A stretch of DNA of 64,000 bases from Candidatus Binatia bacterium (GTDB lineage Bacteria; Desulfobacterota; Binatia; HRBIN30; BPIQ01). Made by a program: the position numbers and the translations under genes. Positions 11,219 through 45,952 of the stretch are shown one piece after another (the stretch's first letter is position 1; each line of letters starts with the position of its first letter). The stretch is from NCBI GenBank assembly GCA_026004195.1, contig BPIQ01000001.1:1416311-1480310 (forward strand). Direction: 5' to 3'. The notes beneath the pieces are model-generated. The model made no database searches, was not told where the DNA came from, and saw only the letters and a list, made by a program, of their open reading frames with translations.

Positions 11219-11538
11219 GGTCCTCCCGGTGGAGCCGACTGCGCGGGGAAGCGGTAGAGAATCTCGCCGGGTTTGACCCAGCCCAGCCGCTCGCGAATGA
11301 CGCGTTCGAGGTAACGGCGATCCGAACGCAAGCGCCGAAGGTGGCTCCTGAGCCGTTCGTTCCTTTCCTGAAGCTCGACGACCCGCCCCCGCAGAAAGCG
11401 GACGTCCCGCAGCAGAGCGGCGCGGCGAGAGACCGTGTCGGAAAGTCCGTGGAGCCCCAGGGTCGCGGCCGCAAGGAAGAACGCGAGCCAGAGAAAGACC
11501 CACCGGTGCCTTCTCCACCGCTCCGCCACCCGGGCCAT
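11215..11538 (-). CDS. ftsB: FtsB/DivIC-family septum formation initiator
   Basis: 107 residues with a short cytoplasmic N-terminus, one membrane segment (VFLWLAFFLAAATLGLHGL, about 14-32), a coiled coil (about 40-75, with RRAALLRDVRFLRGRVVELQ) and the conserved YLERVIRERLGWVKPGEILY block. FtsB-type proteins bridge FtsL and FtsQ in the divisome. The ATG was chosen because it directly precedes the membrane segment. As in many bacteria it neighbours enolase, but here it is divergently oriented from eno. Confidence 0.88.
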   Translation of the reverse strand: MARVAERWRRHRWVFLWLAFFLAAATLGLHGLSDTVSRRAALLRDVRFLRGRVVELQERNERLRSHLRRLRSDRRYLERVIRERLGWVKPGEILYRFPAQSAPPGGP

Positions 11539-11571
11539 GCGGTTTTTGAATGTACGCGACGCCTGCGGTAA

Positions 11572-12873
<1,302 letters not shown>

Positions 12874-12993
12874 AACGCCCTGCTATTCGGACCTGCGGCA
12901 CCGCTTTCCCAACGCCGTTTCGCCGTCGAAATCCGCCGTCGCTTCGGGGTCGTACCGGAATAAAAAAAAATTTGTAAAATGGCATTCTTCCTA

Positions 12994-13021
12994 TTGACAC
13001 GATTTTCGAAGCTCCTATAAT
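12994..13021 (+). promoter_or_regulatory. Perfect-consensus sigma-70 promoter with A/T-rich upstream element
   Basis: TTGACA, a 16-base spacer and TATAAT match consensus exactly. An A/T-rich tract just upstream (AATAAAAAAAAATTTGTAAA) resembles an UP element, striking in such GC-rich DNA. It points at the Lys/Ala-rich peptide gene. Confidence 0.9.
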
Positions 13022-13028
13022 CGCGCCA

Positions 13029-13049
13029 GCGTCGAGAGAGAACCGACGC
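13029..13049 (+). promoter_or_regulatory. Leader hairpin 1 (start of 5' UTR)
   Basis: GCGTCG and CGACGC can pair across a nine-base loop close to the predicted transcript 5' end. Such a hairpin could protect the mRNA 5' end; this role is inferred. Confidence 0.4.
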
Positions 13050-13079
13050 GAGAACTCGTGCGGAGGGATGGTGGTAGTC

Positions 13080-13095
13080 GCTGTTCCAAAACAGC
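13080..13095 (+). promoter_or_regulatory. Leader hairpin 2, abutting the ribosome site
   Basis: GCTGTT-CCAA-AACAGC forms a six-pair stem with a four-base loop ending directly at the AAGGAGGT ribosome site (13096-13103). It could hold the ribosome site open or serve as a protein-binding element. Confidence 0.5.
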
Positions 13096-13108
13096 AAGGA
13101 GGTAGGCT

Positions 13109-13198
13109 ATGGCAGCAAAGAAGACCGCGAAGAAGTCGGTAGCGAAGAAGAAAGCTCCGGCCAAGAAGAAAACTGCGGCCAAGAAGAAAAAGAAGTAG
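13109..13198 (+). CDS. 29-residue Lys/Ala-rich basic peptide (histone H1-tail-like)
   Basis: The peptide is almost entirely Lys and Ala, with AAKK/AKK repeats (it starts MAAKKTAKKSVAKKK) and ends in five lysines. It resembles the nucleic-acid-binding tail of bacterial H1-like proteins but lacks any globular part. Coding is supported by a near-perfect AAGGAGGT ribosome site six to seven bases before the ATG, a perfect-consensus promoter upstream and a strong terminator downstream, making it a compact single-gene unit probably expressed at high level. DNA, RNA or polyphosphate binding is inferred from composition only. The short frame is easily missed by gene callers. Confidence 0.8.
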   Translation: MAAKKTAKKSVAKKKAPAKKKTAAKKKKK

Positions 13199-13258
13199 TC
13201 CCGTAAACTAGGTTTCTCTGGGGTTTCCCTTCGCACGAGCTTGAGCCTGCGGGCTCAG

Positions 13259-13302
13259 CAAGAGAAAAAGCCCTTCGGAATTCCGAGGGGCTTTTTCTCT
13301 TG
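13259..13302 (+). terminator. Long palindromic terminator, probably bidirectional
   Basis: A 44-base near-perfect palindrome: CAAGAGAAAAAGCCC pairs with GGGCTTTTTCTCTTG around TCGGAATTCCGA, with one T-G wobble. The A-rich left arm and T-rich right arm fit termination in both directions. A smaller TGAGCC/GGCTCA hairpin lies just upstream at 13242-13257. Confidence 0.85.
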
Positions 13303-14037
13303 CGCGGGTTACTCGAGATCCTCCGTACCGACGCCGAGCGGCAAAAGTTCGAAGCACGCGTAGTCCTCGTGTGCGGACTCTGGACAGCTCCGAGGGCCTG
13401 GGCACCGTTCGCTTCCTTTCTGGCCCACCGGGGCTGGAGTTCCGTCGCCGTCGGGAGGGCGCGCGCCGCCGGAGCCCGGGACCTCTTGCGCTCCCTCCTC
13501 GATCTCTGCTCGCACGAAAGCACCCCTCCCTTCGTCGTCGGCCACGACGCGGGCGGAACCCTCGCTCTCTACCTGGAAAACGTGCGTGCCGTCGTGTGTC
13601 TCGCCCCCCTTCCTTACGGTACGTCGTGGCCTCATCCCGTGCTGCGTTCGTGGCGTTACCGGCTCGGGAGGAGGCTTTTTCGCCGGGCGCGTCCTCCCCG
13701 GCGAACCGCCTCGGAGGTGCTCGAAATTCCTCCGGGCTGCCTCCTTCCCGAAACCACCGACTGGTCGGCATCCTTGCGTTCCCTGCCACCGCCACCGCGC
13801 GGCGAAACACCGAGGCTCGTGCTCCTCGGCGGACGCGATCCCTGCGTTCCGGCCGCGTTCTGGCGAGAACGAGCCACGCTCCTCGGCGCGGAGCTCGAAA
13901 CGGTCGAGGAGTCCGGTCACGGGCTACCCTGGAACGCCCACTGGCCCGACGTGGTCTCGCGGGTTCACCGGTGGATGGTCCGACAGGGAGGGGAAGAACT
14001 CCTGCTTTTGCGGGGCGACGAGGACCTTCGTGAGTAG
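13300..14037 (+). CDS. Alpha/beta-hydrolase-like protein with Asp at the nucleophile position
   Basis: Up to 245 residues. A first strand and turn (VVLVCGLWTAPRAWAPF), the nucleophile elbow VVGHDAGG (D83), a late acid strand (LVLLGGRDPCVP) and the catalytic-histidine region (ESGHGLPWN) give an alpha/beta-hydrolase layout. Aspartate replaces the usual serine, as in epoxide hydrolases and haloalkane dehalogenases, yet there is no obvious cap domain. The first start is a TTG inside the terminator arm; a GTG at 13369 would remove 23 residues, so the start is uncertain. The 3' end overlaps anmK by eight bases, suggesting translational coupling. The substrate is unknown. Confidence 0.7.
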   Translation: MRGLLEILRTDAERQKFEARVVLVCGLWTAPRAWAPFASFLAHRGWSSVAVGRARAAGARDLLRSLLDLCSHESTPPFVVGHDAGGTLALYLENVRAVVCLAPLPYGTSWPHPVLRSWRYRLGRRLFRRARPPRRTASEVLEIPPGCLLPETTDWSASLRSLPPPPRGETPRLVLLGGRDPCVPAAFWRERATLLGAELETVEESGHGLPWNAHWPDVVSRVHRWMVRQGGEELLLLRGDEDLRE

Positions 14038-15205
14038 GGCGAAGACGGTCGCGCTCGGCGTCATGTCCGGAACTTCGGCGGACGGGATCACCGCGGCGCT
14101 CGTGGAACTCCGGCGGAGGCGGAACGGGTACCGTGCCACACTGCTCGCGTCGCGGACCGACCCCTACCCCGGCACGGTGCGTCGGACCCTCCTCGAGGCC
14201 GCCGAGGGGAAGTCCATCCCCGCCTCGCGGTGGAGCGAACTCCACACCCGGCTCGGGATCGAGTTCGCGAAGACGGCCGGCCGCCTCCTCCGGGCGACGG
14301 GACGAGAAGTCGACGTGGTGGGTTCTCACGGCCACACGGTGTTCCACGGCCCGCCCGGAAGCGGTCTTTCCCGACCGCCCTCGACGTGGCAGATCGGCGA
14401 GCCCACCTTCCTCGCTTTCCTTACCGGAGCGTGGACCGTCGCCGACTTCCGGGTCGCCGACCTCGTCGCCGGGGGTCAGGGTGCCCCCCTCGCACCTTAC
14501 GCCCACGCCCTCCTTTTCCGGCACGCGCGGCGGACCCGCGCCATCCAGAACCTCGGCGGCATCGCCAACGTCACCGTGCTTCCGCCCGCTTCGGCCACCG
14601 CGCCGGTCCTCGCCTTCGACACGGGTCCGGGAAACATGGTGGTGGACGCGCTCGTGCGCCGTTTCTCGCGGGGTCGAAAACGGTTCGACCGCGGCGGGCG
14701 GATGGCCGCCCGTGGCCGGGTGTGCGAGGAGCTCCTCGAGGAGTTCCTCGACGATGCCTACTTCCGCAAGCGGCCCCCCAAGTCCACGGGAAGGGAACGA
14801 TTCGGTCGCGCCTTCGTGGAGAAGTTCCTTCGCCGGGCACGGGCGGCGCGACTCGGACCCGAGGACACCGTGGCGACCGCGACGGCTCTCACCGCCCGGT
14901 CCATCGCCCTCGCCTACCGCCGATTCGTTTTGCCCGCCGCCGAACTCGAAGCCGTCTACCTCTGCGGTGGGGGGAGCTACAACGGGACGCTCGTCCGCAT
15001 GCTCGAGGCGGAACTCCGGGGGATCCCCGTACGCCGAACCGACGCGCTCGGGATCCCGGCGGACGCCGTGGAGGCCGTCGCCTTCGCCGTCCTCGCTTGC
15101 GAGACCTTGGCTGGCCGGCCGGGCAACCTGCCCTCGGTGACCGGAGCCAGGCAGCCCGTGCTTCTCGGGAAGCTCGTGCCGCCGCCTTCGCCTAGGCGAC
15201 GCTGA
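14030..15205 (+). CDS. anmK: Anhydro-N-acetylmuramic acid kinase
   Basis: 391 residues (E. coli 369). AnmK opens and phosphorylates 1,6-anhydro-MurNAc released by murein turnover to MurNAc-6-phosphate. The ATP-binding start GVMSGTSADGI (10-20), GSHGHTVFHGP, WQIGEP, DFRVADLVAGGQGAPLAPY, NLGGIANVT and FDTGPGNMVVDAL are all intact. GTG was chosen because it follows a GAGGA ribosome site and directly precedes the first family motif. It overlaps the upstream hydrolase by eight bases and the convergent patatin gene by 14. murU and amgK lie 1.4 kb away. Confidence 0.95.
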   Translation: MSRAKTVALGVMSGTSADGITAALVELRRRRNGYRATLLASRTDPYPGTVRRTLLEAAEGKSIPASRWSELHTRLGIEFAKTAGRLLRATGREVDVVGSHGHTVFHGPPGSGLSRPPSTWQIGEPTFLAFLTGAWTVADFRVADLVAGGQGAPLAPYAHALLFRHARRTRAIQNLGGIANVTVLPPASATAPVLAFDTGPGNMVVDALVRRFSRGRKRFDRGGRMAARGRVCEELLEEFLDDAYFRKRPPKSTGRERFGRAFVEKFLRRARAARLGPEDTVATATALTARSIALAYRRFVLPAAELEAVYLCGGGSYNGTLVRMLEAELRGIPVRRTDALGIPADAVEAVAFAVLACETLAGRPGNLPSVTGARQPVLLGKLVPPPSPRRR

Positions 15206-21143: not shown

Positions 21144-22247
21144 ATGTGGTTGGAAGTGGGGCTGGCCGCGGCGAAAGGAGCTTTCGTGCTGCTCATGGTC
21201 TTGCAGCTCGCCGGGCTTCTCGGATGGATCGAACGGAAGGGAAGCGCCCTGGTGCAGGATCGCATCGGCGCCAACCGCGCGGCCATCCCTCTTTTCGGGC
21301 GCCCGATCGCCGCGGCGGGGCTCGTCAACACGCTGCTCGCCGACCCGATCAAATTCCTCACCAAAGAAGACGTCGTCCCCGCGGGGGCCGACCGGACCCT
21401 CCACACCCTGGCACCGGCCATGACGCTCTTTCCCGTGCTCCTGACCTTCGCCGTGGTCCCGTTCGGAGACGTCCTGCGGGTCGGGGAGTACGAGATACCG
21501 CTCCAGGTCGCCCCGCTCGACGTGGGGCTGCTCTACGTCCTCGCCATGGTCTCCCTGGGGGTCTACGGCGTCGTCCTGGGAGGCTGGGCATCGAACAACC
21601 GCTGGTCGCTCCTCGGGGGAATCCGGGGCTCCGCGCAGATGATCTCCTACGAACTGGCCATGGGGCTTTCCGTGGCCGCTGCGGTTCTGGTCTACGGCAC
21701 GCTCGACCTCCAGGAGATCTCCCGGGCACAGGGCACGGAGCTGGCCGGCTGGATCCCGGCCTGGGGGATCCTCTACCAGCCGCTCGGGTGCCTCGTCTTT
21801 CTCGTCGCCGGAATCGCGGAAAGCAAGCGCATTCCGTTCGACCTCCCCGAGGCGGAATCGGAGCTCGTGAGCGGGTACTTCACCGAGTACTCGGGGATCA
21901 AGCACCTCATGTTCTTCATGACCGATTTCGTCGAGATCGTTCTGGTGAGCGCCCTGGTCACGACCCTGTACCTCGGCGGCTGGCAAGTGCCGTACCTCGG
22001 CCGCGCGGGCTTCGTGTTCCCCTGGGGCACCGAAATTCTCCTCCCGCACCTCGTGGTCGTCCTCCTGCAGGTCGGAGCCTTCACGCTGAAGGTCCTCTTC
22101 CTCTGCTGGCTCCAGATCATGATCCGCTGGACGCTACCCCGGTTCCGGTACGATCAGCTCATCCGCCTCGGCTGGAAGGGGCTCCTGCCCGTCTCGCTCG
22201 CGAACCTCGTCGCCACCGCCGTTTTTCTCCTCGTCCTGGAGGCGTGA
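21144..22247 (+). CDS. nuoH: NADH-quinone oxidoreductase subunit H
   Basis: 367 residues, eight or more membrane helices. NuoH links the quinone channel to the proton-pumping arm. The family motifs ERKGSALVQDRIGANRA, IKFLTKED, GSAQMISYELAMGL, ESKRIPFDLPEAESELVSGY and the late MIRWTLPRFRYDQL are complete. It overlaps nuoJ by one base (TGATG), leaving no room for nuoI. Confidence 0.97.
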   Translation: MWLEVGLAAAKGAFVLLMVLQLAGLLGWIERKGSALVQDRIGANRAAIPLFGRPIAAAGLVNTLLADPIKFLTKEDVVPAGADRTLHTLAPAMTLFPVLLTFAVVPFGDVLRVGEYEIPLQVAPLDVGLLYVLAMVSLGVYGVVLGGWASNNRWSLLGGIRGSAQMISYELAMGLSVAAAVLVYGTLDLQEISRAQGTELAGWIPAWGILYQPLGCLVFLVAGIAESKRIPFDLPEAESELVSGYFTEYSGIKHLMFFMTDFVEIVLVSALVTTLYLGGWQVPYLGRAGFVFPWGTEILLPHLVVVLLQVGAFTLKVLFLCWLQIMIRWTLPRFRYDQLIRLGWKGLLPVSLANLVATAVFLLVLEA

Positions 22248-22741
22248 TGGAGCTCCTGGCGCTCTTCTTCCTCGGGCTCGCCACCCTCGCCTCCGCGGCG
22301 GGCGTCGTCCTCTTCCGCAACCCCGTGCGGAGTGCGCTCTCCCTGGTTCTCACGCTCTTTCTCGTGGCCGTCCACTTCGTGCTCCTCCAGGCACACATGG
22401 TCGCGGCACTCCAGGTCATCGTCTACGCGGGGGCGATCCTGGTCCTCTTTCTCTTCGTCATCATGCTGCTCAATCTCGAGGCGCAACCACGCGAGTTCGG
22501 GCCGCGGCAACGGAACCTGTTTTCCGTCCTCGCGTGCGGCCTCGTGGCTTTTCCGCTTCTCGGGGCCTTGCTCGCCGGCTCGGCAAGAGAGGCGTCCCTA
22601 CCCTCGGAGTTCGGCACGGTCGGAGCCCTGGCACGGGCGCTTTTCGGGCGGCATCTCCTGGCCTTCGAGCTCACGTCCGTGCTGCTCCTGGTGGCCATCG
22701 TGGGAGCGGTGGTTCTCGGACACAGGAGACCTTCGCGATGA
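22247..22741 (+). CDS. nuoJ: NADH-quinone oxidoreductase subunit J
   Basis: 164 residues, five predicted helices. The segment FVLLQAHMVAALQVIVYAGA followed by ILVLFLFVIMLLN is diagnostic for NuoJ (ND6). A GGAGG-like site in the end of nuoH precedes the ATG. The stop overlaps the nuoK start as ATGA. Confidence 0.95.
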   Translation: MELLALFFLGLATLASAAGVVLFRNPVRSALSLVLTLFLVAVHFVLLQAHMVAALQVIVYAGAILVLFLFVIMLLNLEAQPREFGPRQRNLFSVLACGLVAFPLLGALLAGSAREASLPSEFGTVGALARALFGRHLLAFELTSVLLLVAIVGAVVLGHRRPSR

Positions 22742-23040
22742 ACGTGGCGCAGACTTCCCTCGCGGTCGCCGCCCTCCTTTTCGGCGTGGGTGCGGGCGGC
22801 GTCCTCGTCCGCCGCAACGTGATCGTCGTCCTTTTGTCGGTCGAACTCATGCTGAACGCCGTGAACCTCGCTTTCGTGGCGTTCGCCCGCGAGTACGGGT
22901 CCATGGACGGGCAGGTGGCCGTCTTCCTCGTGATGACCGTCGCCGCCGCCGAAGCGGCGGTCGGACTCGCGCTCGTGCTCGCGGTGTTCCGCAACCGCCG
23001 CACCACCAACCTCGACGAGCTGGATCTCCTGAGGGGGTAG
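22738..23040 (+). CDS. nuoK: NADH-quinone oxidoreductase subunit K
   Basis: 100 residues with three helices, the standard length. The buried glutamates of the proton path lie in SVELMLNAVNLAFVAFAR and MTVAAAEAAVGLALVLAVFR. The C-terminus TTNLDELDLLRG is typical. The start is fixed by the ATGA overlap with nuoJ. Confidence 0.96.
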   Translation: MNVAQTSLAVAALLFGVGAGGVLVRRNVIVVLLSVELMLNAVNLAFVAFAREYGSMDGQVAVFLVMTVAAAEAAVGLALVLAVFRNRRTTNLDELDLLRG

Positions 23041-24945
23041 GTGGAAGCTCCGATGAAGGGAATGTTCCCCCTCTGGTCGATCCCCGCCTTTCCGCTGGCA
23101 AGCTCCGCGCTCCTCGCTCTCCTCGGGGGCGTCCTCCCGAGGCGGGCCGTCCACCTCGTAGCGGTCGGGAGCGTCGGCGCGGCGTTCGCGCTCGCCGCGG
23201 GGAACTTTTTCGTTCTGGCGGCTTCACCCTCGGCCGGCGCCGTCGTCGAGCCTGTTTTTTCCTGGATCTCGGCCGGCGACCTGCGGATCGACGCGACGTT
23301 CCGCTTCGACGCCCTCTCGGCCGTCCTGGCGCTGGTGGTGACCGGCGTCGGATTTCTCATCCACCTCTACTCGACCGGTTACATGGCCGAAGACCCGGAC
23401 CCGGGGCGCTACTTCTGCTACCTGAACCTCTTCACCGGCCTCATGCTCGTCCTCGTCCTCGCCGACAACCTCCCGCTGCTCTTCGTCGGCTGGGAGGGCG
23501 TGGGGCTCTGCTCCTACCTCCTGATCGGCTTCTGGTACGAAGATCCGGAGAAGGCGAGGGCGGGCCGGAAAGCCTTCGTGGTCAACCGCGTGGGCGATGC
23601 CGGGTTCCTGCTCGGCATCTTCTTGCTTTTCTGGCACCTCGGAGGAGGCGCACTCTCGTTCTCCGAAATCGAGGCGTCTCTCTCGCGGATTCCCGAAGGG
23701 GTCGCCGCGGCATGCGCGCTCCTCCTCTTTCTCGGGGCCACCGGGAAATCGGCGCAAATTCCGCTCTACGTGTGGTTACCCGACGCCATGGCCGGCCCCA
23801 CGCCCGTGAGCGCGCTCATCCACGCCGCCACGATGGTCACCGCGGGAGTCTACATGGTCGCGCGGCTCCACTTTCTCTACGCGGCATCCGCCTGGGCCCT
23901 GCCCGTGGTCGCCGTCGTCGGAGCCGTGACGGCCCTTTTCGCGGCCACGATGGCGCTCGTCGAGACGGACATCAAAAAAGTGCTCGCCTACTCCACGATC
24001 AGCCAGCTCGGCTACATGTTCCTGGGCGTGGGCGTGGGCGCCTTTTCGGCGGGCATCTTCCACCTGGTGACGCACGCCTTTTTCAAGGCGCTCCTCTTCC
24101 TCGCCGCCGGCAGCGTGATCCACGGCCTCGGGGGCGAACAGGACATCCGGAAGATGGGGGGGCTTCGGTCTTCCATGCCGCTTACCTTCGCGACGTTTTC
24201 CGTGGGAGTGCTCGCCATCTCGGGGATCCCGGGGTTTTCCGGGTTTTTCAGCAAGGACGAAATCCTGCTCGCGTCCTTCGCCCGAGAACCCGCCCTCTGG
24301 GCCCTCGCCTGGGCGGGTGCGGCGCTCACGGCCTTCTACATGGGGCGGCTCTGGTTCGTCGCTTTTTTCGGCCGCGGCTCCCACGGTCACGAGTGCCCGG
24401 CCTCCATGGCGCTTCCCCTGGTGATCCTGGCTTTGCTTTCGGTTTTCGGAGGCTACGTGGGCCTTCCGGAGTCCTGGCTCTGGGGTAACCCCTTCGCGCG
24501 TTTTCTCGAACCCGTCACGGGCGTGTTCCATCCTCACCTCGACCCCGGAGTCGAGACCGCGCTCTTCGGGCTCTCGAGCGCGGCGGGTGTCGGCGGACTC
24601 CTCGGGGCTTACGTGTTCTACGTGGCCCGGCCCGCGTGGCCCGAGGCGGTGCGACGGCGCTGGTCCGCGGTACACTCGCTTCTCCGGAACAAATACTACG
24701 TGGACGAGGCGTACGACCGCGTCGTCGTGCGACCGACGGTCGCCGCCGCCCGACGGCTCTGGACTTCGGTCGACACGCGCGCGATCGACGGTGCCGTGAA
24801 CGGCGTGGCGAGAGTGTGCTGGGAAGCCTTCGTGACGGCACGCAGGTGGCAGAGCGGGAACGTACAGCACTACGCCCTCTCCGTTCTCGTCGGAGCCGTG
24901 GTGATCCTCGGCTTCTACGCGTGGGCAGGGGGGCTCTGGCCGTGA
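23041..24945 (+). CDS. nuoL: NADH-quinone oxidoreductase subunit L
   Basis: Up to 634 residues, antiporter-like pump subunit with the long lateral C-terminal helix. Proton-path residues lie in NLPLLFVGWEGVGLCSYLL and VWLPDAMAGPTPVSALIHAA; ISQLGYMFLG and the late NKYYVDEAYD segment are typical. The frame opens with a GTG directly after the nuoK stop; ATGs at 23053 and 23062 are alternatives, so the first few residues are uncertain. Confidence 0.96.
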   Translation: MEAPMKGMFPLWSIPAFPLASSALLALLGGVLPRRAVHLVAVGSVGAAFALAAGNFFVLAASPSAGAVVEPVFSWISAGDLRIDATFRFDALSAVLALVVTGVGFLIHLYSTGYMAEDPDPGRYFCYLNLFTGLMLVLVLADNLPLLFVGWEGVGLCSYLLIGFWYEDPEKARAGRKAFVVNRVGDAGFLLGIFLLFWHLGGGALSFSEIEASLSRIPEGVAAACALLLFLGATGKSAQIPLYVWLPDAMAGPTPVSALIHAATMVTAGVYMVARLHFLYAASAWALPVVAVVGAVTALFAATMALVETDIKKVLAYSTISQLGYMFLGVGVGAFSAGIFHLVTHAFFKALLFLAAGSVIHGLGGEQDIRKMGGLRSSMPLTFATFSVGVLAISGIPGFSGFFSKDEILLASFAREPALWALAWAGAALTAFYMGRLWFVAFFGRGSHGHECPASMALPLVILALLSVFGGYVGLPESWLWGNPFARFLEPVTGVFHPHLDPGVETALFGLSSAAGVGGLLGAYVFYVARPAWPEAVRRRWSAVHSLLRNKYYVDEAYDRVVVRPTVAAARRLWTSVDTRAIDGAVNGVARVCWEAFVTARRWQSGNVQHYALSVLVGAVVILGFYAWAGGLWP

Positions 24946-24973
24946 ACGGCGCCGCAAGGGGGGGTTGACTCCG

Positions 24974-26521
24974 ATGCCCTGGCTCACGGCCATCGTCTTC
25001 TCGCCGCTCGCGGGCGCGCTCGTGCTCGGCACGCTCCCGCGCTCGAACGAGGACGCGATCAGGAGGAGCGCTTTCGTCTTCTCGCTCGTGCCCCTTGTCC
25101 TCTGCCTCGCGGTCGCCTGGCTTTTCGAGCCCGGGCGGCCGGACATGCAGTTCTCCGAGCGCGCCGCGTGGATTCCCTCGTTCGGGATCTCCTACCACCT
25201 GGGGGTGGACGGGTTGAGCCTTTTCCTCCTCCTCCTCACCGCGTTCCTCACCCCCCTCGTCGTTCTCGCCTCCTGGTCCGAAATCCGGACGAGGGTGAAG
25301 GAGTTCCACGTCCTCGTGCTCCTCCTCGAGACCGGCATGCTCGGGACGTTTCTCGCGCTCGACCTTTTTCTCTTCTACGTCTTCTGGGAGCTCATGCTCG
25401 TCCCCATGTACCTCCTGATCGGCGTCTGGGGTGGTCCGAGGCGCGTCTACGCGGCCGTCAAGTTCGTCCTCTACACGATGGCCGGAAGCCTGCTCATGCT
25501 CGTCGCCATCCTCTACCTGGCCTGGGCGCAAGCCCGCGCGGCGGGCGAGCCCAGCTTCGATCTTCTGCGTCTTTACGAGCTTGCCCTTTCGCCCGCCGAA
25601 CAACGATGGCTTTTTGCGGCGTTCGCCCTCGCGTTCGCCATCAAGGTGCCCGTCTTCCCTCTCCACACCTGGCTCCCGGACGCCCACGTCGAAGCCCCCA
25701 CGGGGGGCTCCGTGATCCTGGCGGGCGTGCTCTTGAAGATGGGCACGTACGGACTCCTGCGTTTCGCCCTGCCGCTTTTCCCCCTGGCGTCGACCGAAGC
25801 TGCACCGTACCTCGCTCTGCTCGGCACCGTGGGAATCGTCTACGGTGCTCTGGTCGCCATGGTGCAACCCGACCTGAAAAAACTCGTCGCTTACTCGTCC
25901 GTGAGCCACCTGGGCTTCGTCGTGCTCGGTCTTTGTTCTTTCAACGCCCAGGCGACCGCCGGCGCCGTCTACCAGATGCTCGGGCACGGGCTTTCCACGG
26001 GGGCCCTCTTCCTCCTCGTGGGCGTCCTCTACGAGCGGCGGCACACCCGACAGATCGCCGATTTCGGCGGTCTCTGGAAAGTCGTCCCGGTCTACGCCTC
26101 CTTTCTCCTGGTGATCACCCTCGCGTCGGTCGGGCTTCCCGGCCTCAACGGGTTCGTGGGCGAGTTCCTGATCCTTCTCGGGGCCTTCGCCGAGCACCGC
26201 GTCCTCGCCGTTCTCGCGACGAGCGGCGTCGTCCTGGGTGCGGCGTACATGCTCTGGATGTACCAGAGAGTCGCTTTCGGTCCGATCTCGCACCCCGAAA
26301 ACCGCGAGCTGCGCGACCTCACCAAGAGGGAGCTCGCCACCCTCGCACCCATCCTCCTCCTCTGCTTCGCGCTCGGTGTCTACCCCGCGCCGCTGCTCGA
26401 ACGCATGGGGCCGTCCATCGAACTCCACCTGACCCGAATGCGCGACAAAGTGGAACGCACCCTGCCGCATGCCCCGCGGCCGGCGACCGAACACGAACCC
26501 TCTTCCGTTGGCCCCTCATGA
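24974..26521 (+). CDS. nuoM: NADH-quinone oxidoreductase subunit M
   Basis: About 515 residues, antiporter-like subunit. The VFWELMLVPMYLLIGVWGG block carries the key glutamate, and PLHTWLPDAHVEAPTGGSVI is the quinone-oxidoreductase M signature. An A/G-rich ribosome site precedes the ATG; a TTG nine bases earlier is possible. The stop overlaps the nuoN ATG (ATGA). Confidence 0.96.
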   Translation: MPWLTAIVFSPLAGALVLGTLPRSNEDAIRRSAFVFSLVPLVLCLAVAWLFEPGRPDMQFSERAAWIPSFGISYHLGVDGLSLFLLLLTAFLTPLVVLASWSEIRTRVKEFHVLVLLLETGMLGTFLALDLFLFYVFWELMLVPMYLLIGVWGGPRRVYAAVKFVLYTMAGSLLMLVAILYLAWAQARAAGEPSFDLLRLYELALSPAEQRWLFAAFALAFAIKVPVFPLHTWLPDAHVEAPTGGSVILAGVLLKMGTYGLLRFALPLFPLASTEAAPYLALLGTVGIVYGALVAMVQPDLKKLVAYSSVSHLGFVVLGLCSFNAQATAGAVYQMLGHGLSTGALFLLVGVLYERRHTRQIADFGGLWKVVPVYASFLLVITLASVGLPGLNGFVGEFLILLGAFAEHRVLAVLATSGVVLGAAYMLWMYQRVAFGPISHPENRELRDLTKRELATLAPILLLCFALGVYPAPLLERMGPSIELHLTRMRDKVERTLPHAPRPATEHEPSSVGPS

Positions 26522-27942
26522 ACGCGCCCGATCTTTCCTGGACGGCTCTCCTGCCACTCCTTGTCGCCCTCGGAACGGCACTCACCGTTCTTCTTGCCGA
26601 CCTCTGGAGCGAGGGGCCCGACCGCGAAAGCCTGGGCTGGCTCGGCGTGGTGGGACTCTCCGTCCTCGGAGCCGTCTCGCTGCTCCTCTGGAACCGGCAC
26701 GAGCTCACGATCGCGGGCACGCTCGCGCTCGACCGGTTCGCCGTCTTCTTCGACCTGTTCTTCGCCTTCTCGGGCGTCTTCGCCCTGTTGCTTTCGATGG
26801 CCTTCTTCGAGAAGCAAGTGCAGCAGGTCGGCGAGTTCTACGCGCTCCTCCTTTTTTCCCTTTTCGGGATGCTCGCGATCGCGGCGACGACCGACCTGAT
26901 CACGATCTTTCTCTCCCTCGAAATCCTCTCCCTCGCCGCTTACGTCCTCACGGGCATTCGACGCGACGACCCGCGCGCGACCGAAGGGGCACTGAAGTAC
27001 TTCGTCGTCGGGGCCTTCGCGACGGGCTTTCTCCTGCTCGGCGTCGCGTGCCTTTACGGCGCCACGGGAACCACGCTTCTTGCGCCGCTCGCCGAAGCCC
27101 TCCGTTCCGGAACCTCGCGCGCGCTGGTGCTCTCGGGCGTCGCGTTCCTGCTCGTGGGTTTCGGTTTCAAACTGGCGGCCGTCCCCTTCCACCTCTGGGC
27201 ACCGGACGCCTACGAAGGTGCGCCCACTCCGGTCACGGCCTGGATGGCGGTGGCCGTGAAGGCCGCGGCCCTGGCCGGCCTTCTCCGCGTCCTTTCCACC
27301 GCGCTCGACCCGCTGGCCGCCGACTGGAAGCCGCTCGTAGCGGGGCTCGCCGCGGTCACGATGACCGTCGGCAATTTTCTCGCCCTCGGCCAGACGAACG
27401 TGAAACGGCTTCTCGCGTACTCGAGCATCGCGCACGCGGGTTACCTTCTCGTCGGCGTCGCGGCGCTCGAGTCCGGCGGCGGCTCGGCTCTGCTCTTCCA
27501 CCTCGTCGCCTACGCGCTGATGAATCTCGGGGCCTTCGCCGTCGTCGTGGCCCTCGGGGAGCGGGGCGAAGTGCTCGCGGGATTCGAGGGCGTGGGCTTT
27601 CGTTACCCGCTGCTCGGGGCGGCGATGAGTCTTTTTCTGCTTTCGCTCGCGGGGATTCCCCCCCTCGCGGGATTCGCCGGAAAGTTCTACCTCTTCGCCG
27701 CGGCCGTGCGTGCCGACTACGTCGGCCTCGCGGTGCTCGGCGCTCTCAACAGCGTGCTTTCCATGTACTACTACGCCGGCGTGCTCGTGCGCATGTACAT
27801 GAGAGAAGGCGAGCCCGAGGCCGAGATCGGCGGGCCGCTGGCCGTCACACTCTGGGTCATGGGACTCGGCACGCTTCTGCTCGGCGTTTTCCCGGCTGCG
27901 TTCCACCGCTTCGCGGAACTTTGCTTTTCGGCGCTCGGGTAG
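26518..27942 (+). CDS. nuoN: NADH-quinone oxidoreductase subunit N
   Basis: 474 residues, third antiporter-like subunit. IFLSLEILSLAAYVLTG contains the conserved glutamate, and PFHLWAPDAYEGAPTPVTAW the NuoN signature. It closes the nuo run; after the stop a short intergenic stretch holds a candidate promoter for the MoxR operon. The membrane arm is complete (A, H, J, K, L, M, N). Confidence 0.96.
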   Translation: MNAPDLSWTALLPLLVALGTALTVLLADLWSEGPDRESLGWLGVVGLSVLGAVSLLLWNRHELTIAGTLALDRFAVFFDLFFAFSGVFALLLSMAFFEKQVQQVGEFYALLLFSLFGMLAIAATTDLITIFLSLEILSLAAYVLTGIRRDDPRATEGALKYFVVGAFATGFLLLGVACLYGATGTTLLAPLAEALRSGTSRALVLSGVAFLLVGFGFKLAAVPFHLWAPDAYEGAPTPVTAWMAVAVKAAALAGLLRVLSTALDPLAADWKPLVAGLAAVTMTVGNFLALGQTNVKRLLAYSSIAHAGYLLVGVAALESGGGSALLFHLVAYALMNLGAFAVVVALGERGEVLAGFEGVGFRYPLLGAAMSLFLLSLAGIPPLAGFAGKFYLFAAAVRADYVGLAVLGALNSVLSMYYYAGVLVRMYMREGEPEAEIGGPLAVTLWVMGLGTLLLGVFPAAFHRFAELCFSALG

Positions 27943-27958
27943 TTCCGCCGGGGAACAA

Positions 27959-27987
27959 TTGACCCCCCTGGCCGAGTTCCCTACTCT
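27959..27987 (+). promoter_or_regulatory. Candidate promoter for the MoxR/DUF58/VWA operon
   Basis: TTGACC and TACTCT are separated by 17 bases, with the first gene's ATG 23 bases further on. The -35 matches consensus at five of six positions, the -10 at three. Confidence 0.4.
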
Positions 27988-28010
27988 GAAATCGTGCGGC
28001 GAGTGGCTCG

Positions 28011-42241: not shown

Positions 42242-43213
42242 ATGCGGTGCGTCGCGAAAGCCCTGGCCGGGCTGCTTCTCCTCTTCTCCGTCCCGGGCTG
42301 CGCCTTCGTTTTCGCGGAGATCGACCTCCTGAAACGAAAACCCGAGCCTCTCGAGGAGCACGTCGTCGAAGGCAAGGGCAAAGCGAAGATCCTCCTCGTC
42401 GAAATCTCGCGGACGATCACGGCGACCGGCGAAGAGGGGCCGCTCGGCCTCTCGCGGAAAGAGGCCACGCTCGACCGCGTGAAGGCCGAGCTCGGCCGAG
42501 CGTCACGGGACGACGACGTGAAGGCGCTCGTCTTGCGTATCGACAGCCCCGGCGGCTCCGTCACGGCGAGCGACACCATCTACCGAGAGATCCGTCGCTT
42601 CGCGGAAAAACGCCACGTGCCCGTCGTCGCCCACCTGATGGACCTCGGCACCTCGGGCGCCTACTACGTGGCGCTCGCCGCCGACTCGATCGTGGCACAG
42701 CCCACCACCGTCACGGGGAGCATCGGGGCCGTGCTCTACGGCCTCAACGTGGAAGGCCTTTTCCGCAAGCTCGGGATCGAAGACCAGACGGTGAAAGCGG
42801 GAGAACACAAGGACATCGGCTCGCCGCTGCGCAAAATGACGCCCGAGGAAAGGGCCATCCTCGAGCGCGTCCTCTCCGAGATGCGGGACCGTTTCGTTTC
42901 CCTCGTCCACGAGCGGCGACCCGCGGCCCCGAGAAACGGGAGTTGGGCGGACGGCCGCATTCTCACGGCCGAGCAAGCGCTCGCCGCGGGACTCGTGGAC
43001 CGCATCGGCTACCTGGACGAAGCCATCGAAGAGGCCCGAAAGCGGGCCGGCGTGAAAAAAGCTCGCGTCGTCCTCTACCGCCGGAGCGACGAGCCGCAGG
43101 AAACGGTTTACGCCATGGCCGGAAGCGCTTCGTCTCGGGCTTTTCCGCTCGAAGCCGGTGCTTTTCTCACACCGCGCTTTCTTTACCTCTGGCTTCCGCC
43201 CACGGGCCCCTGA
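42242..43213 (+). CDS. sppA: Signal peptide peptidase SppA-type lipoprotein
   Basis: 323 residues. The lipoprotein signal MRCVAKALAGLLLLFSVPGC ends at C20. The S49 protease core has RIDSPGGSVTASD, the nucleophile S138 in DLGTSGAYYVA and the general-base lysine K190 in AGEHKDIGSPLR, so the Ser-Lys dyad is intact. SppA degrades leftover signal peptides; the short form acts as a multimer. Here the anchor is a lipid rather than a helix. The next gene starts 22 bases after the stop. Confidence 0.9.
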   Translation: MRCVAKALAGLLLLFSVPGCAFVFAEIDLLKRKPEPLEEHVVEGKGKAKILLVEISRTITATGEEGPLGLSRKEATLDRVKAELGRASRDDDVKALVLRIDSPGGSVTASDTIYREIRRFAEKRHVPVVAHLMDLGTSGAYYVALAADSIVAQPTTVTGSIGAVLYGLNVEGLFRKLGIEDQTVKAGEHKDIGSPLRKMTPEERAILERVLSEMRDRFVSLVHERRPAAPRNGSWADGRILTAEQALAAGLVDRIGYLDEAIEEARKRAGVKKARVVLYRRSDEPQETVYAMAGSASSRAFPLEAGAFLTPRFLYLWLPPTGP

Positions 43214-43235
43214 ACGGCCGACCGCGCGAGACCGC

Positions 43236-44714
43236 GTGCCCCGCGAGACGGCCTTCTGGTTTTTCCTCCTCGTCACGTCCTCCCTCTACCTTCTCTCCGA
43301 TCCGACCGCCGACAACGACCTCTGGGTCCACCTGAAGAGCGGCCTCTTCATCCTGGAGAGCGGAGCCGTCCCCCGTACGGACGTTTTCTCGTACACGGCC
43401 GCGGGACACCCCTGGGTCGACCACGAGTGGCTCTCGCAAGTCCTTCTGGCCTGGATTTACGGCACTTTCGGTAGCCGCGGGCTTTTCGCGTGGAAGCTCG
43501 TTCTGGGTCTTCTCGCCCTCGCCCTTCTCGCCGCGGACGTTCTGCGCACCCGGCTCCCGCTTCCGCTTCGTGTCGTTCTTCTCGTTCTCGGTCTTTCCGT
43601 CCTCTCGCGGGGTTTCGCGCCCCGGCCGCAAATTTTCACCTACGCCGCCCTGGCAGGTCTTTTTTTCGTCCTCCGCAGGACACCCTCCCCTTCGCCCTGG
43701 GCTCTCGCCCTCGCTTTCGCCCTCTGGGCGAACCTGCACGGGGGAGTACTCGCGGGACTCGGCGTTCTCGGCGTGCGCGCCGTCTGGAACGCGTTCGTCC
43801 TGCGTTCGGAGGCGCGCCGCTCGGCGCTCGGGTGCCTCGCGGCACTCCTCGCCTTTCTCTTTCTCAATCCCTACGGCCCGTCGCTCGGCCTCTACGTGCG
43901 CGAAGAGCTTTTTTTCCCCCATCCCATCACGGAATGGCAGCCGCTCGCCCTCGAGCCCGCGCAGGGGACCTTCCTTCTTCTTGCGGGCGGATTCGTTCTC
44001 ACGCTCTTCCGTACCGAGTTCCGAGGACGGGGCTGGGAAGCCGGGCTCGGCGTGCTCTTTCTGGTTTTCGCCTTCCGACACCAGCGCCACACGCCGCTCT
44101 TCGCCCTCGCGGCGCTGCCGCTTCTTGCCGAGAACCTCGAGCGCTTTCTCGCTTCTCCACCTCCGGCTTTTCTCCGGTTCGGGCGAACGCTTTTCCTTTC
44201 CGAACCCGCACGGCGGATCCTTCTCGCCGGCGTGGCCGCCGTCTCCGTGCTCCAGCTTTCTCTTCTGATCGCGCGGGCTTTCGAGCACCGCTTCCGTATC
44301 GTCTACGACCGAAGGGACTATCCCGTGGGGGCCGTCACCTACCTCCGGGAGTGTGGCATCGGAGGGAACGCAGCCGTGCCGCTCGACTGGGGAGGCTACG
44401 TCCTCTGGCACCTCTCCCCGGACGTGCGAGTCTCTCTCGACGGACGGTTCGCGACCGTCTATCCCGTGCGCGCCGTCCGGGACAACTTCGACTTTTTCGC
44501 GGGCGAGAGGGTCGAAGGGTTTTTGCGGCGCTACGAAACGGACCTGGTGTTCGCCCCCACTGGCTCGCCGCTCGACCTCTCGCGCGTGCCCGGCTGGCAC
44601 CCGATCTTCCGGGACGATACGTGCCTCCTCTGGGCGCGGACGCCGATCCTCGAAAAGGCGCGAAGCTGCCCCCCGGTCCGGACGCCCCGTTCGCCCCGGC
44701 TCTTTTTTCCGTGA
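43236..44714 (+). CDS. Polytopic membrane protein with C-terminal soluble domain, function unknown
   Basis: About 492 residues from a GTG. Nine or ten hydrophobic segments cover the first 370 residues. An early loop DNDLWVHLKSGLFILESG and the HPWVDHEWLSQ motif resemble the first extracytoplasmic loop of GT-C-type membrane glycosyltransferases, and a compact C-terminal part follows (VPLDWGGYVLWHLSPDVRVS). The Asp/His-rich loop suggests a polyprenyl-linked sugar transferase, but the acceptor is unknown. A longer start is possible; this one follows the sppA stop. Confidence 0.65.
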   Translation: MPRETAFWFFLLVTSSLYLLSDPTADNDLWVHLKSGLFILESGAVPRTDVFSYTAAGHPWVDHEWLSQVLLAWIYGTFGSRGLFAWKLVLGLLALALLAADVLRTRLPLPLRVVLLVLGLSVLSRGFAPRPQIFTYAALAGLFFVLRRTPSPSPWALALAFALWANLHGGVLAGLGVLGVRAVWNAFVLRSEARRSALGCLAALLAFLFLNPYGPSLGLYVREELFFPHPITEWQPLALEPAQGTFLLLAGGFVLTLFRTEFRGRGWEAGLGVLFLVFAFRHQRHTPLFALAALPLLAENLERFLASPPPAFLRFGRTLFLSEPARRILLAGVAAVSVLQLSLLIARAFEHRFRIVYDRRDYPVGAVTYLRECGIGGNAAVPLDWGGYVLWHLSPDVRVSLDGRFATVYPVRAVRDNFDFFAGERVEGFLRRYETDLVFAPTGSPLDLSRVPGWHPIFRDDTCLLWARTPILEKARSCPPVRTPRSPRLFFP

Positions 44715-44944
44715 GTGCTGCTCCTCCTTGTCCGTGAGTACCGGAGCTCCCCGGCTCTCCTTTCACGCCGCCGAACTCTTCGGCCTCGCTTGCTGTTCGC
44801 TGTTCTTTTGTCTGCCCGCGCTCACCCGCGCTTGCCGCGCCGTCGCCCACGGCTCGACGCCTGGTCGCGGCGTTCTCGAGCGTCGGGCGGCTACCCGTGT
44901 CCCGCGCAAGCGCGATCGGGCGGCCACGGGCCCGGGCGGCCCAT

Positions 44945-45952
44945 TCAGAGGACCGTGGACTCTTTGGCTCCCTTGGCCACGTAGAGCACGAGCCCGTCCC
45001 GCTCCTCGCACTCCACCTGGCCGAGCCGCATCATGTGGCGGAGGTGTGCGAGAGTCTCGAACGTGGCCGGAAACTGCACGGTAAGCGGACTTTCGGGCGT
45101 GAAGTCGAACACGCGCGACGCGATCTCGTAGGCCGGCTTGGGCCGCTTGCGGATCACGTCCAGGATCTCGCGCATCCGGTAGTCGTGATGCTGGATGATC
45201 TGGGCCGCCCGCCGGCGGTGGTCGGTGTAGACGGGCCCGTGGGCGGGAAGAACGAAGTCCACGTCGTCGAGCGACGCCACCTTGCGCTGGGAGTCGAGGA
45301 AGTCCCCGAGAGGATCCGGGGGGCCGTTCGGGAACCAGCCGACGTGGGGCGTGATTTTGGGGAGCAGGTGATCCCCCACGACGAGGACACGCTCGCGGGG
45401 AAGATGCACGACGCAGTGCCCCGGCGCGTGGCCCGGCGTCCAGACGATCCGGAACTCGCGCTTTCCCACCTCGAGGACCTGTCCGTCCTCGAGAAAGCCG
45501 TCCGGTTCACCCGGGGCGTAAAGCTGCGACCAGAACTCGCCCTGCGACGGCACGCGCGGGAGGCGTTCGAGCGGAATGCCGTTCGCTCGAAAAAATGCGA
45601 TGGCTTCCGGAGGGCGGTCCCGGCTCGCGAAGGTTCGAGAGCGGTCGAACTCGAGGGAATGGACGAGAAGTCGCGCGCCCGTCTTCTCTTTGAGCGCACG
45701 CGAAGCCCCGAAATGGTCGGGGTGGTGGTGCGTGCAGACGATGGTGGAAATCTCGGCCGGCGGGCAGCCGATCGCGCGCAGCAAAGCTTCCCAGGTGGAG
45801 AGGCTCTCGGGGCTCCCCACGCCCGTGTCGACGAGAACCCACTCGCCGTTGCACCGAACGAGGTAAGTGTTGACGATCGTCGGGCGCATCGGGAGCGGGA
45901 GAAAGAGTTCGAAGATCCCGGGCAGGATTTCTCGGTACTTCGGCTCGGACAT
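44945..45952 (-). CDS. MBL-fold metallo-hydrolase
   Basis: 335 residues. The metal-binding motif THHHPDH (74-80), the later GHAPGHCVVH and VVGDHLLP, and AHGPVY give a complete metallo-beta-lactamase fold. The C-terminal helical extension with RMREILDVI and a winged-helix-like end resembles the LACTB2/hydroxyacylglutathione-hydrolase-like group. The substrate is unknown. The dodecin gene lies 18 bases upstream on the same strand. Confidence 0.88.
   Translation of the reverse strand: MSEPKYREILPGIFELFLPLPMRPTIVNTYLVRCNGEWVLVDTGVGSPESLSTWEALLRAIGCPPAEISTIVCTHHHPDHFGASRALKEKTGARLLVHSLEFDRSRTFASRDRPPEAIAFFRANGIPLERLPRVPSQGEFWSQLYAPGEPDGFLEDGQVLEVGKREFRIVWTPGHAPGHCVVHLPRERVLVVGDHLLPKITPHVGWFPNGPPDPLGDFLDSQRKVASLDDVDFVLPAHGPVYTDHRRRAAQIIQHHDYRMREILDVIRKRPKPAYEIASRVFDFTPESPLTVQFPATFETLAHLRHMMRLGQVECEERDGLVLYVAKGAKESTVL

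Follow-up and report, generated by a model that had tools for sequence, protein, structure and literature searches.

A small lysine- and alanine-rich gene of Binatia with covarying complementarity between the two ends of its predicted transcript

The window, i.e., the whole analysed stretch of 64,000 nucleotides from a Candidatus Binatia bacterium, carries on its plus strand a compact unit of promoter, leader, short open reading frame (ORF), trailer and terminator (Table 1). The perfect TTGACA/TATAAT promoter described in an earlier note on this DNA had been placed correctly, and shuffled sequences contain practically nothing comparable; it is the sole promoter-like site that the promoter scan listed between 11400 and 14600, where none was listed on the minus strand. 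The A-rich tract upstream and the ribosome site claimed in the same note are present as well, the latter ending 5 bases before the ATG. The peptide has the frame and the 29 residues proposed there, but "almost only Lys and Ala" has to be reduced to 23 of 29 residues (15 Lys and 8 Ala; the remainder are M, T, T, S, V and P). An Abhydrolase_6 gene follows the microprotein gene at 13318-14034.

Table 1. Positions of the elements of the microprotein unit in the window.
Feature	Coordinates	Strand	Sequence or detail	Basis
A-rich element 5' of the -35 hexamer, probably UP-type	12960..12993	+	A-rich stretch proper 12960-12979	comparison with relatives
Sigma-70-type promoter TTGACA-16-TATAAT	12994..13021	+	-35 TTGACA 12994-12999; -10 TATAAT 13016-13021; spacer 16 bases	12/12 consensus matches; shuffles mean 0.0 (sd 0.1)
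First leader hairpin	13029..13049	+		predicted fold
Clamp helix P1, 5' strand	13055..13068	+	CTCGTGCGGAGGGA; pairs with 13226-13239	fold, helix search, covariation
Hairpin directly 5' of the ribosome site	13080..13095	+	GCTGTT-CCAA-AACAGC	predicted fold of whole transcript
Shine-Dalgarno sequence	13096..13103	+	AAGGAGGT	identical 8-mer in 29/78 loci, shorter versions in the rest
ORF, 29 aa	13109..13198	+	MAAKKTAKKSVAKKKAPAKKKTAAKKKKK + TAG; ATG at 13109	synonymous-change test on relatives
Clamp helix P1, 3' strand	13226..13239	+	TCCCTTCGCACGAG; pairs with 13055-13068	fold, helix search, covariation
Hairpin between clamp and terminator	13243..13256	+	GAGCC-TGCG-GGCTC	predicted fold; hairpin at the same place in the order-alignment consensus
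Intrinsic terminator, near-palindrome	13258..13303	+	21-bp stem, 4-base loop	sequence and fold

Counting the one in the window, 78 loci were parsed, and these represent 15 of the 17 families of the class to which the window belongs, Binatia (f1-f17 in the numbering of the tool; the window sequence is the only member of its family). They comprise 74 loci and 4 added later and come from 77 genomes, one of which (G018) gives two; the inspection covered part of the 148 genomes of the class. The first set was obtained by a DNA search of 58 related genomes, which yielded 40 loci; in 30 of them a recognisable promoter is followed by a short Lys-rich ORF. Nine of the 40 had no such ORF, among them L007, L033 and L034, which were recovered later, and L029 and L035, longer K-rich proteins without the promoter, were left out. 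A GGAGGT-like site was among the selection criteria for relatives and the Lys-rich composition was itself a filter, thus only the extremeness of that composition is news.

In the first set, enolase lies upstream in 17 of 30 loci and an alpha/beta hydrolase downstream in 18, the flanks often being only 1.5 kb long. Enolase-based sampling, with 118 class genomes searched, 110 matched and 40 downstream regions taken, found the gene in 16 regions, i.e., 15 and L068, which has a run of unknown bases and is not among the 78. The earlier proposal to look for relatives after eno holds for many families, but in f5, f11 and f12 the gene was found away from enolase. The next gene on the same strand encodes an alpha/beta hydrolase of the Abhydrolase_6 family in 40 of the 78 loci and 11 of the 15 families, even where no enolase is adjacent, and this gene was not detected within 450 nt in the other 38. 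A pattern of ribosome site plus start matched 46 of the 148 class genomes, and a family-wise pattern 16 of 41 in f12. A loose pattern gave 3 matches in 2 of the 9 genomes of f14, none with a K-rich ORF, and the single f6 genome matched neither search pattern. The phylum search of 198 genomes, 191 of them outside the class, returned one match, inside the class, and says little because the pattern at 1 mismatch finds a minority even inside the class. Four loci stayed unparsed (L126 and L062, which do contain the ORF, and L123 and L127, which gave none), as did the f12 extras L130, L132, L133 and L134, which stand outside the 78. Repeats of genes already counted were left out (e.g., L041-L044, L046, L087, L089 and L097; further L106, L109-L113 and L116). 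L045 matched the promoter pattern, has no such ORF and was taken as chance.

Peptide length in the relatives ranges from 13 aa (f5) to 120 aa (f16), while the composition is kept. Lysine makes up 36-69% of the residues (median 50%), and the 78 peptides together contain 7 acidic residues, no aromatic residue or His and no Cys. Codon changes were counted in 30 disjoint within-family pairs of close relatives, which cover 60 of the 74 parsed loci. Among 392 differing codons, 277 were synonymous and 115 non-synonymous, compared with 83.3 synonymous changes expected if the same codons had changed uniformly at random (P = 3e-97); transition bias, which is not part of this test, would raise the expected 83, though hardly to 277. 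The differences at codon positions 1, 2 and 3 number 91, 71 and 343, and even the f5 peptides of 13-17 aa show 29 synonymous and 0 non-synonymous changes over five pairs. The ORF is under protein-level selection in the relatives and is not a chance ORF. Loss of the frame in relatives had been named beforehand as the outcome that would speak against a peptide; as the frame is conserved and selected at the protein level, the peptide reading withstands that objection. Since the window sequence is alone in its family and outside all 30 pairs, its own coding support comes by homology.

Most families share a consensus-like promoter and a strong ribosome site. A promoter site scoring at least 10 (of a maximum of 12.6) precedes the gene in 57 of the 78 loci, and a spacer of 18 occurs in 21 of the 30 loci of the first set; f8 has no such site in any of its 14 loci, and no good promoter was found there. 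The predicted accessibility of the Shine-Dalgarno sequence is middling, with a median of 0.42 unpaired over the 78 loci. Read from these sequence signals, the peptide is probably strongly expressed and abundant. Within the order of the window, and likewise in f5, f10, f11 and f17, the gene is preceded by an A-rich element similar to that of the window, as are the second gene copies in f8; the element is degenerate in f9, takes another A-rich form in f12 and is absent from f7, f13, f15 and f16. The 60% consensus of the region before the -35 hexamer over 30 loci is TTnAAAAAAnnTTTCCAAAATGnnnTTnTTCT. Of 20 relatives searched with the 28-base consensus at up to 3 mismatches, 10 have a single match each, in every case at the microprotein gene; the window's own genome has no match. 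The element is therefore not a general strong-promoter element in the genomes that carry it. We regard it as probably an UP-type element; a dedicated regulator is possible, as occurrence once per genome is unusual for a plain UP element.

The earlier note missed a predicted helix between leader and trailer, P1, that can close the mRNA around the ORF like a clamp. In the window, its gapless score was matched by none of 73 other-family trailers and none of 100 shuffles, and with bulges allowed 1 of 100 shuffles was as good. The strand sequences differ by family, e.g., CTCGCCTGAG/CTCAGGCGAG in f10, GAGTTCGAGACGGGGG with CCCCCGTCTCGAACTC in f4 and GCTTCGCTTC with GAAGCGAAGC in f8. When one leader and one trailer per family were drawn from 15 families (200 draws, 2000 permutations each), no permutation in any draw reached the sum for own leader:trailer pairs (z 4.9-8.6). 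When the own trailer was shuffled with dinucleotides kept and bulges allowed, the mean z was positive in 14 of 15 families and the combined z, i.e., the sum of family means divided by the root of 15, was 9.0; in 32 of the 78 sequences at most 5 of 100 shuffles were as good. By this test f2 is weak (mean z 0.35) and f15 has no clamp helix (-0.40). Relatedness inflates tests on alignments, thus the permutation and trailer-shuffle tests carry the weight.

In the alignment of the window's order (15 sequences), 81% of cells were paired versus 70% in shuffles, and double-change cells numbered 53 versus 23, a value reached by none of 500 shuffles, while the number of pair types was unexceptional (63 of 500 shuffles). 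Double-change cells were also in excess in f12 (12 sequences; 16 versus 4.5) and in f9-f11 (3 versus 0.2), each with 0 of 500 shuffles, and marginally so in f7 (4 versus 1.9; reached by 28 of 500). The clamp was not significant in the f8 alignment, nor in that of f5 and f17 (1 versus 0.2; 79 of 500), where the strands hardly vary. Whole-duplex energies, which pair entire strands and are a poor measure of a clamp, supported it weakly (median p 0.0055, worst value 0.13). With the gapless helix score, which misses bulged helices, the own trailer beat all other-family trailers in 12 of 74 sequences, and one draw of one sequence per family lay beyond all 20000 permutations. Leader:trailer pairs above 0.8 are contained in 51 of the 78 predicted folds. 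These computations show that leader and trailer sequences are complementary in a covarying way across families; the two ends of the mRNA can thus meet and enclose the ORF. In some families the clamp is weak or absent. The choice between a peptide and a structured RNA, as the earlier note had framed it, is thus not an either/or, because the RNA structure is conserved through this helix as well as the reading frame.

The whole transcript of the window is predicted to fold far better than shuffles (z -6.45; 0 of 200 as good), whereas the leader alone with its hairpins folds no better than they do (z -0.92; 34 of 200). Both leader hairpins pointed out before can be located (Table 1); the one next to the ribosome site appears in the whole-transcript fold, and the leader-only fold picks another pairing instead. 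The terminator, previously given as a palindrome of 44 bases, is near-palindromic and 46 bases long because of its 21-bp stem and 4-base loop. A simple terminator scan did not list it, probably because the T-run is itself part of the 3' stem arm; in the relatives, terminator-like hairpins were seen by eye after the clamp. An RNA G-quadruplex was also considered for the leader. Four GG runs at the spacing used are present in 28 of the 78 loci (families f2-f4 and f9-f11, e.g., L002, L004 and L006, and two loci in f12) and not in the window leader. Such G-rich leaders could, judged by their sequence, give rise to an RNA quadruplex of two tiers or serve as a binding site for a protein.

A second layer of pairing was noticed in f5 and f17. 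In their 12 sequences CGCCTGAG/CTCAGGCG and GGGAGGGTTT/AAACCCTCC are nearly invariant, while synonymous sites of the ORF change. The leader GGGAGGGTTT is complementary to the trailer AAACCCTCC in an order that crosses the clamp, and with small variations the same leader is complementary to the trailer AAACCCTCCTTA, again crossing the clamp, in L033, L007, L114, L115 and L117-L122. Alternatively, CCTCCTT of the trailer can pair with the ribosome site AAGGAGG in most of the 12 sequences; this trailer also matches the anti-Shine-Dalgarno sequence. The crossing helix may be a pseudoknot, and the pairing over the ribosome site a switch of the icaR kind; both were seen in these families only.

The "histone-tail-like" description given earlier fits the composition, but no family model matches the peptide. 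It hits no Pfam or NCBIfam family, and five longer relatives stay below the cut-offs, the best match being 19.4 bits to a Burkholderia H1-like model with a cut-off of 80. No solved protein chain matches the peptide at E up to 10. H1-like proteins such as Chlamydia Hc2, its Bordetella and Burkholderia relatives and the C-terminal domain of AlgP are likewise low-complexity chains rich in Lys, Ala and Pro, a character that the peptide shares, although composition was also the selection filter. As two studies describe, they vary in length through repeats, those of Hc2 being lysine-rich (PMC2848022; PMC9239181), and fragments of the lysine-rich AlgP tail bind DNA, and cells need this tail to space their polyphosphate granules evenly (PMC9239181). 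These proteins measure about 165-320 aa, whereas the peptide here has 29 aa (13-120 in relatives) and amounts to the tail only. By analogy it would work like an H1-like tail at most, and by the tests made it is not a member of the H1-like proteins. Lacking a hydrophobic core, the peptide is unlikely to adopt a fold and would be expected to act through its charge.

We hypothesize, with a probability of about 0.58, that the unit is a stand-alone gene for a polycationic, mostly Lys/Ala microprotein, retained in most families of the class, whose product acts by charge in the manner of an H1 tail and whose mRNA is stabilised or insulated by the end-to-end clamp. The strong promoter, the A-tract and the full Shine-Dalgarno sequence would yield abundant peptide. 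The clamp would protect both ends of this short transcript against decay, or would let RNase III trim them; the ribosome site would stay outside it, with 27 bases between that site and the 5' strand of P1. Together with the small hairpins and the terminator, the clamp would leave few free ends, and few free ends may slow the decay of a short mRNA. The released peptide could neutralise or condense polyanions, i.e., DNA, RNA or polyphosphate, as lysine-rich H1-like tails may do. A point against this reading is that the f5 peptides of 13-17 aa are very small for proteins that bind nucleic acids and would come free while still within the tunnel of the ribosome.

It is less probable, although it deserves attention, that the unit mainly produces an RNA, structured or with a dual function, whose ORF is secondary, serves to keep ribosomes bound or encodes a peptide ligand of that same RNA. 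The layout of the transcript persists even where the peptide is down to 13 aa, and the near-invariant strands of f5 and f17 point the same way. However, the shortest peptides, those of f5, are under protein-level selection too, expansion to 120 aa inside a loop would be unusual for a structured RNA, and no Rfam family reached the gathering score anywhere in the window, the 15 matches of a permissive search all lying below it. As for known RNAs of this shape, tmRNA likewise has its two ends held together by a long helix that encloses a short ORF; the unit, unlike tmRNA, has its own Shine-Dalgarno sequence and ATG, and the tmRNA of this genome (158.6 bits) was located at G000:C1:25315-25665, with the window at C1:1416311-1480310.

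A regulated mRNA of the icaR or hok kind, in which the trailer pairs with the ribosome site and stops translation until release or RNase III cleavage changes the output, seems an improbable account of the unit. The mRNAs of hok and other type I toxins do combine a small ORF with end-to-end pairing, but the toxins are hydrophobic membrane peptides, whereas the peptide here is half Lys and without an aromatic residue. As regards an antisense RNA from the opposite strand, another mark of such systems, the promoter scan of 11400-14600 listed no minus-strand site. In icaR mRNA of Staphylococcus aureus, leader and trailer pair across the coding region as they are predicted to do here, and one study describes that the trailer there masks the ribosome site, reduces translation and creates a target for RNase III (PMC3868564). 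The CCTCCTT motif of f5 and f17 would allow such pairing. Pairing of trailer and Shine-Dalgarno sequence was, however, rejected for the window, where P1 ends 27 bases before the ribosome site and leaves it outside, and where no CCTCC occurs in the trailer before the terminator; the icaR helix is experimental and lies on the ribosome site, while that of the window lies upstream of it and is supported by evolution only.

We give similarly little credence to a version in which the transcript is a chassis, its covarying helix displaying the polycation ORF so that the nascent peptide binds the closed RNA that encodes it, or else RNA or DNA nearby; a ribonucleoprotein or condensate would build up in abundance, with the RNA as important as the peptide. 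A lysine-codon attenuator, where translation of a leader peptide decides between termination and read-through into the next gene, would suit a short Lys-rich ORF followed by hairpins, a terminator and, in those 40 loci, a hydrolase gene, but is very improbable given that the next gene in the window is Abhydrolase_6 and not a lysine-metabolism gene, that 38 loci have no detected hydrolase gene, that ORFs reach 120 aa and that the distance from stop to clamp varies. A lineage-specific, very small ribosomal or ribosome-bound protein can hardly be credited either, for although tiny basic ribosomal proteins exist and the size, Lys content and strong expression signals would agree, the ninefold length range, the low-complexity sequence and the lack of any solved-chain match at E up to 10 speak against it.

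Pairing of UTRs is already known in bacteria from icaR, and polycationic proteins are known from the H1-like group. To our knowledge, a bare polycationic microprotein inside a covarying clamp, found class-wide, is new. The open-licence papers searched yielded no report of the gene, which is weak evidence of novelty, and the Binatota genome paper (PMC8262859) contains none of the terms looked for in it. A peptide of 13-30 residues composed almost entirely of two amino acids is shorter than gene callers usually accept and, because of low-complexity filtering, escapes homology searches; here codon selection and covariation of the transcript ends independently show that such a gene is real. If abundant, the peptide would be the smallest H1-like polycation that we are aware of and a natural minimal system for the condensation of DNA, RNA or polyphosphate by bare charge. 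The clamp would be among the few bacterial 5'-3' UTR pairings supported by evolution rather than by one strain, so that the part played by mRNA closure is open to direct testing.

Two f8 genomes carry two copies of the gene, G018 (L034 and L056) and G064 (L062 and L096). In each pair one copy lies behind enolase, and the shorter copy, located elsewhere, has a long leader with CCGCCTAGGGCTC and GGGGTTCCC; these paralogues may have divided functions. Elsewhere in the window, positions 22001-28000 and 43001-45000 show strong negative AT skew (-0.23 to -0.38), which perhaps reflects long genes on one strand.
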